From Verrucomicrobiales bacterium (GTDB taxonomy: Bacteria; Verrucomicrobiota; Verrucomicrobiia; Verrucomicrobiales; V1-33): a stretch of DNA of 50,557 nucleotides. A program made the translations under genes and the position numbers. The notes under the pieces were generated by a model, which was not told the DNA's origin, did not search any database, and was given only the letters and a program-made list of their open reading frames with translations. Position 1 is the stretch's first letter. Each line of letters starts with the position of its first letter. Below, in pieces: positions 1,625-4,826 of this stretch. The DNA is taken from contig JAGNEJ010000029.1 of the NCBI GenBank assembly GCA_018003315.1, positions 1 to 50,557 of the forward strand, given 5' to 3'.

Positions 1625-2620
1625 TCACGCCTTCTCCGCGAACTGGGCGTCGAAAACGATGTTGGACGGGGGGAAGTCCAGCTTTTTGACAAAGGCGCAG
1701 GACTCGGTGGCACCGAATTCGCGGTCCATGCCGCCGTCCTCCCATTCCACGCTCAGTGGTCCGGTGTATTGGATGTCATTGAGGGCACGGATGATTTTTT
1801 CAAAGTCGATGCAGCCGCGTCCCACGCTCTTGAAATCCCAGTAGCGGTTGGGCCGGTGGAAATCCACATGGCCGCCGAACACGCCGGCTTCATCCCCCAG
1901 ATTCCACGCCACGTCCTTCATGTGAACGTGGAAAATGCGGTCATGGAACTTGTGGATGAATTTCACATAGTTCACTCCCTGATAACCAAAGTGGCTGGGG
2001 TCGTAGTTGAAGCCGAATGCCGGATGGTAGTCGAGCGCCTGCAGGGCGCGTTCCGCGGAGGCAATGTCGAAGGCGATCTCCGTCGGGTGCACCTCCAGGG
2101 CGTAGCGAATGCCAAGCTTTTGAAACTCATCGAGGATCGGCTTGAAGCGCTTGGCGAAGTCCGCATAACCGGCGTCGATCTGCCCCGGCGTGACCGGCGG
2201 GAAGGAATAGCAAAGGTGCCAGATGCTGGAACCGGTAAAACCGTTGACCACGCTGACTCCAAAGCGCCTGGCAGCCTGGGCGGTCTTGATCAATTCCTCC
2301 GCGGCCCGCTGGCGCACCCCTTCCGGACTGCCGTCGCCGTAGATGTAGTCCGGCAGGATTTGGGCATGCCGGGCGTCGATGTTGTCACACACGGCCTGGC
2401 CGACCAGGTGGGTGGAAATGGCAAGGCATTTCAGCCCCTTCTCCGCCAGCAGTTTGCGCCTGGCATCGCAGTAGGCCTGGTCGGCCTTGGGCACTTCGAA
2501 ATGGTCTCCCCAGCAGGCAAGTTCCACCCCGTCGTAGCCAAACGCCTTGGCCTTGTCGAGCATGTCGGTCAGTTTAAGGTCGGCCCACTGGCCGGTAAAA
2601 AGGGTGACGGGTCTTGCCAT
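1625..2620 (-). CDS. Sugar phosphate isomerase/epimerase-like TIM-barrel protein
   Basis: Xylose-isomerase-like (AP endonuclease family 2) TIM barrel of 331 residues, probably a cytoplasmic metal-dependent sugar or inositol-type isomerase or epimerase. Visible features are [24 protein letters not shown] near the N-terminus, [12 protein letters not shown] with a metal-type glutamate, [11 protein letters not shown] with an aspartate, HVHMKDVAW, and [12 protein letters not shown] with the last acidic ligand. The ATG at 2620 (protein MARPVTLF) is preferred: the frame is open 20 codons further upstream, but that stretch does not resemble the family. No Shine-Dalgarno is visible. The substrate cannot be told from the sequence. 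It stands alone between two convergent or tandem genes of unrelated function. Confidence 0.88.
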
Positions 2621-2808
2621 GGTTTTTTTCGAAGCGGTTATGGTTGGAAAAGCGGGCCGCCACCAGCCGACACACGACATGCTCCGGCACGGCGACCACG
2701 GAGCGGATGCTTAACGGGGAGCCTGACCGGCTGCAAGCGGATTCCGTTTACGCAAGCACCCGCCAGGCCTCCATCCGGAAGCCTGACGGGTCCACGCCTC
2801 ATTCCGCC

Positions 2809-2837
2809 GGCGGACACCGCGCCGTGCGGCGTCCGCC
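2809..2837 (-). terminator. Hairpin after the outer-membrane protein gene
   Basis: GGCGGAC (2809-2815) pairs with GTCCGCC (2831-2837). After one mismatch an inner CCGC/GCGG stem closes a 5-nt loop. It starts 10 nt beyond the stop of the minus-strand gene ending at 2848. No T-run follows, so it may be a weak terminator or a 3'-end stabilising structure. Confidence 0.4.
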
Positions 2838-2847
2838 AAAGGATTTG

Positions 2848-3600
2848 CTAGAATTTCACCGCGAGGCTGATGCCGGCCTGGAAGATGTCGTCCTCCACTC
2901 CGACGCCTTCGGTTGCTTCGAGGGCGAAATTGGCACCGATGTAGGGTGTGAGCGTCGCCGTCCGGCTCAGGGAGATCGGGAACCCCAGCCGGATGCCGAC
3001 GTGGTTGAAATCATCCACTTCGGAGTTGTAGCCGATGTTGTAGCCCAGACTGGAACTGGCCACGATGCTAAGGGTGTCGTTGACCTTGAATGTCTTGCCA
3101 ATGCCGAGTTCCAGGTAATGGCCGTCCACTTCAAAATCGTAGAAGTAGCTGAAATACACGTCCACCGGCAGTGTGGCGGAGGCAATGGTCACGAACGGCT
3201 CGTACTGGTTGTCGAGCACGGAACCGTCCAGATAGTGATACCAGGTAAACCCGGTGCTGACATTGACCGGTCCGGCCGCATAGGTCAGCCCGGCATACAG
3301 GTCGAGTTCGTTGTAGGTGTAGTCAAAGAGATGCCCGAACCACTGCCCCGCGGTGAGCGAGAGTTTGTCCGTCAACGGCATCGCAAACTCCAGTTTCTCC
3401 CAGAGCAACTGCTCCCCGACATTGACGCCGTGGAAAATGTAATGGGAATCAAAGCCCGTGCTCAGCGTGAACCCGAGCAGTTCGTCCGCGGGCGGCGGCG
3501 GCGGCACAGCGGCCTTGCCAGGAGCCTTGCCGGTGCCGGCCAGGGCGGCCCCGGTGCCCAGGAGCGTTACCGTCAGGAGGGAGGAAAGCGTTTTGGTCAT
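2848..3600 (-). CDS. Outer-membrane beta-barrel protein, TorF/porin-like
   Basis: A 250-residue exported protein. The N-terminus MTKTLSSLLTVTLLGTGAALAG is a signal peptide, followed by a short Pro-rich spacer. The rest consists of alternating amphipathic strands rich in Tyr, Phe and Gly (for example SHYIFHGVNVGEQ and NELDLYAGLTYAAGPV) and ends in VKF, the C-terminal phenylalanine typical of barrels recognised by BamA. It resembles the TorF putative porin family in the FHG..VGEQ and ELDLYAGL segments; this assignment is tentative. The start at 3600 is chosen because it opens the signal peptide; the frame is open 94 codons further up without protein-like sequence. A sigma-54 promoter sits about 75 bp upstream (3674-3690). 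The leader has no Shine-Dalgarno and reads CAAACCAAACCAATACAAAC. Confidence 0.8.
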   Translation of the reverse strand: MTKTLSSLLTVTLLGTGAALAGTGKAPGKAAVPPPPPADELLGFTLSTGFDSHYIFHGVNVGEQLLWEKLEFAMPLTDKLSLTAGQWFGHLFDYTYNELDLYAGLTYAAGPVNVSTGFTWYHYLDGSVLDNQYEPFVTIASATLPVDVYFSYFYDFEVDGHYLELGIGKTFKVNDTLSIVASSSLGYNIGYNSEVDDFNHVGIRLGFPISLSRTATLTPYIGANFALEATEGVGVEDDIFQAGISLAVKF

Positions 3601-3673
3601 GTTTGTATTGGTTTGGTTTGATGGTGGTGTCTCCAGGGCGGTATTGATGTCAGCCCCGGTCCGCTTTCCGTAG

Positions 3674-3690
3674 AGCAAATCGCGTGCCAA
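3674..3690 (-). promoter_or_regulatory. Sigma-54 (-24/-12) promoter of the outer-membrane protein gene
   Basis: On the minus strand the sequence reads TTGGCACGCGATTTGCT. This matches the sigma-54 consensus TGGCACG-N4-TTGCW at every conserved position, with the exact spacing between the GG and GC elements. The predicted start of transcription is near 3663, giving a leader of roughly 60 nt before the ATG at 3600. Confidence 0.75.
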
Positions 3691-3747
3691 AACTGCCGCC
3701 AGCGGTCTGCTTTCTGGAAAAATTTGTTTTTGCCTGCCTAGCCGCAC

Positions 3748-3759
3748 CCGACTTGTCGG
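3748..3759. promoter_or_regulatory. Palindrome upstream of the sigma-54 promoter, possible enhancer site
   Basis: CCGAC-TT-GTCGG is a perfect inverted repeat centred about 90 bp upstream of the predicted start site at 3663. That is the usual distance for an activator of sigma-54 RNA polymerase. An A/T-rich stretch (about 3717-3731) lies between it and the promoter and could bend. It could equally act on the divergent arsS gene. Confidence 0.35.
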
Positions 3760-3848
3760 CACGACCGTCGCTGTTGCAACCGCCGGGAAATCGCCTTGCT
3801 GGATGACGGAATCTGCTGCCCCAGTGTCAAAATTTCCGGTCCTTGCCC

Positions 3849-4826
3849 ATGCCTGACACACCATTGCTTTTCGCAGAGTCACTGGCCCGCAGCGGGCGCC
3901 TGCTGACCAGAGGCCAGCCCGAAATCCTGCAGCTCAACGTGGGCAAACGGTGCAACCTGACGTGCATCCACTGCCACGTCAACGCAGGGCCGAACCGCCG
4001 GGAAATCATCGCTCCGCACACGGTGGACCGGGTGCTGGGCTGGTTTGAAAGCGCCGGGCTGCCGGTGCTGGACCTGACCGGAGGCTCGCCGGAAATGGTT
4101 CCGGATTTCCGCCGCATCATCCGGACCGTGCGCCAGTTCTGCGACCGCCGCCGGATCATCGACCGACTCAATGCCACCATCCTGGATGAACCCGGTTATG
4201 ACTGGGTGGCGGAATTCCTCGCGGAACATGAGGTGGAAATCGTCGCCTCCATGCCGTGCTACGAACCGGCCAATGTCAACGCCCAGCGTGGCGACGGCGT
4301 TTTTGACCGCAGCATCTCGGCATTTCAAAAGCTCAATACCCTGGGCTACGGCACCCGTCCGGAACTGACATTGAACTTCGTTTACAACCCGAACGGCGCC
4401 TTTCTCCCCGGTCCCCAAGCCGAACTGGAAGCGGACTACCGCCGCGCCATGCGGGAGCATTTTGGCATTGAATTCAACCGGCTCTACACCATCACGAACA
4501 TGCCCATCAGCCGTTTTGCGGCCTGGCTGCGGCATTCCGGTCAGCTGGAGGCCTATCTGGAACTGCTGCGCGCGGCGTTCAATCCGCAGACGGTGGACGG
4601 ACTCATGTGCCGCAATACCATCAATGTCAGTTGGCAAGGGGAAGTGTTTGACTGCGACTTCAACCAGATGCTGGACCTGCACCCCACGGGACACGGCGAC
4701 CGCGAACCGCTCTTCCTCTGGGATGTGGATCCTGACAATTTTACCCGACTGCCCATCCGCACCGGAAATCACTGCTTCGGCTGCACCGCCGGCTGCGGCA
4801 GTTCCTGCGGCGGGGCGCTGGTGTGA
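3849..4826 (+). CDS. arsS: Radical SAM protein ArsS-like (arsenosugar biosynthesis family)
   Basis: A 325-residue radical S-adenosylmethionine enzyme. The [4Fe-4S] cluster motif CNLTCIHC (Cys35, Cys39, Cys42) follows LQLNVGKR and leads into HVNAGPNRRE. Further family blocks are DLTGGSPEMVPDFR, SMPCYEPANVNAQRG.GVFD.SI, LNFVYNPNGAFLPG, FNRLYTITNMPI and DCDFNQML. The C-terminus is Cys-rich: HCFGCTAGCGSSCGG. These blocks match the ArsS/rSAM-SeCys family, whose cyanobacterial members act after the methyltransferase ArsM in arsenosugar formation; some homologs carry selenocysteine, whereas here all positions are cysteine codons. The ATG at 3849 is preferred to the TTG at 3843. No arsM or arsenic regulator is in the window, so the substrate is uncertain. 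Confidence 0.85.
   Translation: MPDTPLLFAESLARSGRLLTRGQPEILQLNVGKRCNLTCIHCHVNAGPNRREIIAPHTVDRVLGWFESAGLPVLDLTGGSPEMVPDFRRIIRTVRQFCDRRRIIDRLNATILDEPGYDWVAEFLAEHEVEIVASMPCYEPANVNAQRGDGVFDRSISAFQKLNTLGYGTRPELTLNFVYNPNGAFLPGPQAELEADYRRAMREHFGIEFNRLYTITNMPISRFAAWLRHSGQLEAYLELLRAAFNPQTVDGLMCRNTINVSWQGEVFDCDFNQMLDLHPTGHGDREPLFLWDVDPDNFTRLPIRTGNHCFGCTAGCGSSCGGALV

Follow-up and report, generated by a model that had tools for sequence, protein, structure and literature searches.

Among the closest described systems is the amine porin BCAL3473 of Burkholderia cenocepacia, which is raised under nitrogen depletion and is needed for use of arginine, tyrosine, tyramine and putrescine as nitrogen source (PMC10117139). 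According to the accessible parts of that report, BCAL3473 is additionally subject to a small RNA and a LysR-type regulator. In the accessible text of other papers, chaperone genes are placed under sigma 54 in Planctomycetota and Bacteroidota (PMC12316311), as is hrcA-grpE in Chlamydia (PMC8762339, PMC7482065). For a verrucomicrobial methanotroph, NtrC-type regulators are listed and amtB expression was higher on nitrate (PMC5623727). A survey presents sigma 54 as a controller of the bacterial exterior; its main text, as accessible, names neither Verrucomicrobia nor a porin (PMC3162934).

Here we describe a putative porin gene in a window of 50,557 nt (the whole stretch of DNA analysed), which is contig C62 of a 5.09-Mb Verrucomicrobiales genome in 155 contigs. 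Both this gene and BCAL3473 carry sigma-54-like elements; the spacer is too long in BCAL3473 (PMC10117139, in its accessible parts), whereas it is canonical here. We propose that a sigma-54 promoter would hold the porin gene silent until the RNA polymerase complex is opened by an AAA+ activator. The likeliest trigger would be nitrogen limitation, and the channel would then pass small nitrogen compounds across the outer membrane under ammonium shortage.

The porin-like gene and its upstream site

The predicted 250-aa protein has no Pfam or NCBIfam match of its own, and the TorF and Gcw_chp models are unmatched at E values up to 1. Six of its 21 aligned relatives match the TorF putative porin family (TIGR02001, best value 4e-11) and five of the 21 match Gcw_chp (PF09694). 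The label TorF-like, rather than member, is used because the protein itself matches no family model. By eye, it has a signal-peptide-like start and a C-terminal Phe. An AlphaFold model built from two sequences has 10 strands at a pLDDT of 35, and a profile search of the PDB returned no solved relative. On the evidence of its family, the protein is likely an outer-membrane barrel. A hairpin at the stop codon and the divergent gene for an arsenosugar biosynthesis protein are included in Table 1.

Table 1. Positions of the features discussed, numbered from the first nucleotide of the window.
Feature	Position	Strand	Basis or remark
Hairpin at porin stop codon	2795..2850	-	14 pairs, -33.8 kcal/mol, z -4.7, no U tract
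TorF-like putative outer-membrane porin gene, 250 aa, stop codon included	2848..3600	-	Family matches of relatives
12-nt direct repeat CGGTCCGCTTTC / CGGTCTGCTTTC	3657-3668 and 3703-3714		92%; flanks promoter, 46 nt apart
Predicted transcription start	3663	-	Placed from position of -12 element
13-mer CTCTACGGAAAGC	3663..3675	-	Sole other exact genome copy in glnII leader
Predicted sigma-54 promoter, -24 TTGGCACG, spacer CGAT, -12 TTGCT	3674..3690	-	12/12 consensus bases; matrix score 22.98
A/T-richer stretch, palindrome to promoter	3713..3738	.	62% A+T; window 61% G+C
Palindrome CCGACTTGTCGG, most likely chance	3748..3759	.	Sequence; dyad counts
ArsS, arsenosugar biosynthesis radical SAM protein, divergent from porin	3849..4826	+	TIGR04167, 413 bits (cut-off 300)

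The initial annotation had read the upstream site as agreeing with the -24/-12 consensus at every conserved base, and this is borne out: TTGGCACGCGATTTGCT (minus strand, 3690-3674), 89 nt upstream of the porin gene start, has all 12 conserved bases of TGGCACGN4TTGCW. Thus, the GG of the -24 element and the GC of the -12 element are present at the fixed spacing of a sigma-54 promoter. The predicted +1 is placed near 3663 because the C of the -12 element is at 3675; this is the start proposed earlier, and it is 63 nt upstream of the ATG at 3600. The 13-mer CTCTACGGAAAGC occurs twice in the genome, once across the predicted start of the porin transcript and once at G000:C77:5306-5318 (plus strand), 48 nt upstream of the glnII ATG. 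Among the upstream regions of other relatives examined, no full copy of the 13-mer occurs.

Recurrence of the site in Verrucomicrobiales

By count alone, the perfect site is not in excess of chance. There are two perfect matches to TGGCACGN4TTGCW in the genome, where about 1.4 are expected from base composition, and 36 places with at most one mismatch versus 55 for a reversed-pattern control. Two looser patterns gave 5 places versus 8 and, for TTGGCAYN6TGCW, 7 versus 4; a pattern with wrong spacing (one extra N) gave 7 versus 9 for its control. Raw genome-wide enrichment was rejected as a line of evidence, as the looser patterns are not clearly above the reversed control. We judge the promoter to be more than chance because it is sited before a gene start and recurs before homologous genes.

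The second perfect match in the genome is 57 nt upstream of dnaK. A match with one mismatch is found 136 nt upstream of a glnII-type glutamine synthetase gene, and a further match (matrix score 20.6) precedes glnK-amtB. Of the seven TTGGCAYN6TGCW places, four (these three and the porin site) are at promoter distance from a recognisable gene, and three are not.

Genes for glnII were identified in 41 of 57 Verrucomicrobiales genomes and dnaK in 34 of 37. Among the best 30 loci of each, one dnaK locus being too short, a -24/-12 match of at least 10/12 occurs within 300 nt of the start in 21/30 glnII upstream regions (0.76 in Markov shuffles) and 25/29 dnaK upstream regions (0.63 in shuffles). A matrix was constructed from 55 distinct sites of glnII and dnaK orthologues, with zero porin sites in the training set. 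The porin site scores higher (22.98) than all 55 training sites (range 6.1 to 22.2).

The matrix was applied to the 90 best-scoring loci of the porin family among the matches listed, from which L070, L201 and L232 were dropped for short upstream regions, leaving 87. A score of at least 12 was found before 32 of these 87 best-scoring genes, compared with 7 of 373 upstream regions of other genes in the same stretches (two of the seven being glnK and a porin paralogue). When porin upstream regions were read on the other strand, 4 of 84 reached this score. The shuffle expectation at score 12 is 0.55, a value from an earlier set of 84 porin upstream regions. Distances from site to gene start range from 52 to 317 nt and are at most 104 nt for 16 of the 32.

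The remaining 55 of the 87 best-scoring family members among the matches listed have no such site. The closest orthologue (in genome G001, 63% identity) has only a degenerate site, with a score of 11.3, and its upstream region aligns to that of the porin with a score of 35 (200 shuffles: mean 23.5, maximum 42). On the family tree, presence of the site requires 21 changes, at least 13 of them forced by well-supported branches, compared with 26.2 in shuffles, 9 of 500 of which were as low. From these changes, we infer that sigma-54 control was often gained or lost in the porin family.

It is this comparative evidence that, in our reading, decides the promoter's reality. We consider the promoter almost certainly real and of sigma-54 type, with its use in vivo as a prediction.

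Candidate activators and the likely signal

The earlier reading survived a search for the sigma factor itself: the genome encodes one complete RpoN, with activator-interaction (AID), core-binding (CBD) and DNA-binding (DBD) domains. Four response-regulator-type proteins with strong or split matches to the sigma-54 activator domain were identified. Enhancer-binding protein genes had been named as something to look for, and two of the four (on contigs C15 and C107) have a GAFTGA-type contact loop, in the form GSFTGA, while the two on C71 are without it. That this loop contacts sigma 54 is established (also PMC6389857). The gene for one C71 activator-like protein lacking the loop (L079:2332-4684) immediately precedes a further small gene for a putative outer-membrane barrel. 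The proposed sigma-54 control of a porin-like protein is therefore well supported, by rpoN, the two GSFTGA activators, the top site score and the family-wide recurrence.

The order appears to have a small sigma-54 regulon that would comprise glnII, glnK-amtB, dnaK (then groES-groEL) and many porins of this family. In this genome glnII and glnK-amtB, which are classical nitrogen targets, carry the promoter type of the porin. Nitrogen genes also occur beside some relatives. In G115, a sigma-54 porin gene adjoins genes for allophanate hydrolase, urea carboxylase, UAAP1, UAAP2 and a NikR-like regulator; a gene for a urea-type ABC binding protein (match below the curated cut-off) comes after the porin gene. 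Sigma-54 porins of G089 and G038 are by similar urea carboxylase/allophanate hydrolase clusters, as judged by eye, G089 and G115 being near copies. Most of the sigma-54 porin neighbourhoods read contain no nitrogen gene. A sigma-54-like site was also observed 28 nt before the predicted start of the NikR-like gene by urea carboxylase (L084:6985-7446, minus strand, and L083:5405-5866, plus strand; scores 14.5 and 13.2).

Two observations make nitrogen the likeliest signal: the promoter type common to glnII, glnK-amtB and the porin, and the placement of three related sigma-54 porins next to urea carboxylase operons. Given a real promoter, we consider it somewhat favoured. Among the signals offered by the initial annotation, nitrogen status is thus the best supported, and an envelope signal or a two-component reading ranks below it. 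For the reading as a whole, a sigma-54 promoter with nitrogen limitation as trigger for the porin, we estimate a probability of about 0.55. Sequence comparison provides the promoter and its recurrence, the rpoN gene and the two activators; use in vivo, signal, cargo and choice of activator are predictions.

The two activators with a contact loop differ in form. The C107-type protein has orthologue-level matches in 56 of 57 genomes, and retains the phospho-acceptor Asp and a Fis-type HTH match in 11 of 11 sequences. A PAS histidine kinase is encoded nearby in 7 of 11 neighbourhoods, though no such kinase was observed next to the copy in this genome. On these sequence features, the C107-type protein is the natural candidate for activator of dnaK, and it may control dnaK, glnII, glnK-amtB and the porin alike.

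The C15-type protein (G000:C15:5024-6409, L076, and 11 relatives) has Glu at the phospho-acceptor position in all 12 sequences, and its C-terminal Fis-type HTH is recognised in 3 of the 12 at E 0.1. Group g5 (13 genomes) lacks it throughout, as it does glnII, and G010 and G014 lack it too. Presence of glnII and of the C15-type agrees in 52 of 57 genomes, a count in which the g5 co-absence represents one event, since g5 is one lineage. The sigma-54 site is retained at each of the four dnaK loci of g5 that were examined, and dnaK can therefore do without the C15-type protein. This leaves the C15-type protein, by exclusion, as a candidate for glnII, glnK-amtB and the porin, and we favour this pseudo-receiver protein as candidate activator of the porin and nitrogen genes. 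A third activator may also lie in the part of the genome that is missing (completeness 96%).

Upstream motifs distinguish the dnaK promoters from the others. The tandem motif GNCAN3TGNC is present in 23 of 28 dnaK upstream regions, in 47 copies where 1.28 are expected, versus 1 of 26 sigma-54 porin upstream regions (these from the earlier set of 84, in which some starts and tandem copies are wrong) and 0 of 30 glnII upstream regions within 300 nt of the ATG. In the genome studied, dnaK has two copies, the porin and glnK have none, and glnII has one (GGCAAACTGGC) in a longer stretch. Motif discovery upstream of the porin and glnII sites returned nothing clearly above shuffled maxima, and no enhancer common to the porin and glnII promoters was found. 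A conserved enhancer would be unnecessary for an activator with weak DNA binding, which the C-terminus of the C15-type protein suggests. The dnaK site itself is at L080:9073-9088 (G000:C121:73072-73087), with groES and groEL as the genes downstream of dnaK; upstream regions of relatives are L150-L179.

These motifs bear on the strongest alternative, in which the promoter is real and the porin responds to a signal of stress or from the envelope, rather than to nitrogen, through the C107-type two-component protein, the most likely activator of dnaK. The conserved sigma-54 promoter of dnaK in the same genomes speaks for it, as do the near-universal presence of the C107-type protein, its normal receiver and HTH and the frequent nearby PAS kinase. 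In addition, sigma 54 serves hrcA-grpE and envelope genes in Chlamydia, in the accessible text of PMC7482065 and PMC8762339. However, the motif that marks dnaK upstream regions is nearly confined to them relative to the sigma-54 porins, and there is none before the porin studied. We regard the stress or envelope reading as possible and, on balance, unlikely.

A wider proposal extends the nitrogen reading to a single sigma-54 regulon that is split. A phosphorylatable two-component activator would act on GNCAN3TGNC arrays for the dnaK operon. A pseudo-receiver activator with fixed Glu and an eroded DNA-binding end, and with no fixed enhancer, would serve nitrogen assimilation and the porins, whose promoters were gained and lost many times. 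We offer this as a tentative and rather doubtful model.

The palindrome had been described as centred near -90, with an A/T-rich segment between it and the promoter, and both features are present (Table 1). It had further been taken for the enhancer, and this we reject. An enhancer-binding protein acting on CCGAC-TT-GTCGG at -90 would fit a dyad that is perfect and at the usual enhancer distance, and CCGACNNGTCGG occurs once in the window where 0.12 is expected. Inverted repeats with a loop of exactly two also number one versus 0.29 expected in the 247-nt intergenic region. Yet over loops of 0-8, dyads with 5-nt arms are at chance frequency in the same region (2 seen versus 2.5 expected), and no copy of CCGACNNGTCGG was seen in the 25 other sigma-54 porin, 30 glnII and 28 dnaK upstream regions examined. 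It is also a single copy, whereas enhancers are commonly present in two or more. The palindrome is probably a chance sequence, and a role as enhancer is very improbable.

Least credible is that the site is a chance resemblance and another promoter drives the porin: the expected number of perfect matches and the degenerate site of the nearest orthologue would allow this, but the excess over control genes and a score above every training site argue against it, and no sigma-70-type promoter was found in 2600-3900.

Comparison with known systems

The preferred reading of nitrogen-responsive sigma-54 control resembles the Ntr regulon (glutamine synthetase, P-II and AmtB) in that glnII and glnK-amtB have the same promoter type as the porin. 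It differs in that neither glnII nor the porin was found to have an NtrC-type enhancer upstream, and in that the candidate activator is without a phosphorylatable Asp. To our knowledge, such a porin is not among the classical Ntr targets.

The sigma-54 regulon of Chlamydia CtcC also includes chaperone-operon and outer-membrane-protein genes under an activator without a DNA-binding domain (PMC7482065). That domain is entirely missing from CtcC, whereas the C15-type protein retains a weak remnant of it and carries Glu in the receiver. The accessible parts of that report name no nitrogen genes among the Chlamydia targets.

Within the open-licence literature searched, as far as its texts were accessible, we found no description of sigma-54 control of this porin family, nor of glnII, glnK-amtB and dnaK as sigma-54 targets in Verrucomicrobiales. 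The sites described here provide a testable list of sigma-54 targets for a widespread and mostly uncultured bacterial order, and would link a large unnamed family of outer-membrane proteins to nitrogen supply. Cultured relatives could serve to test both the conserved dnaK promoter of sigma-54 type, which has an enhancer motif of its own, and the activator that has no phosphorylatable aspartate. Judged against the accessible open-licence literature, the kind of control is known, and the gene family and the lineage are new for it.
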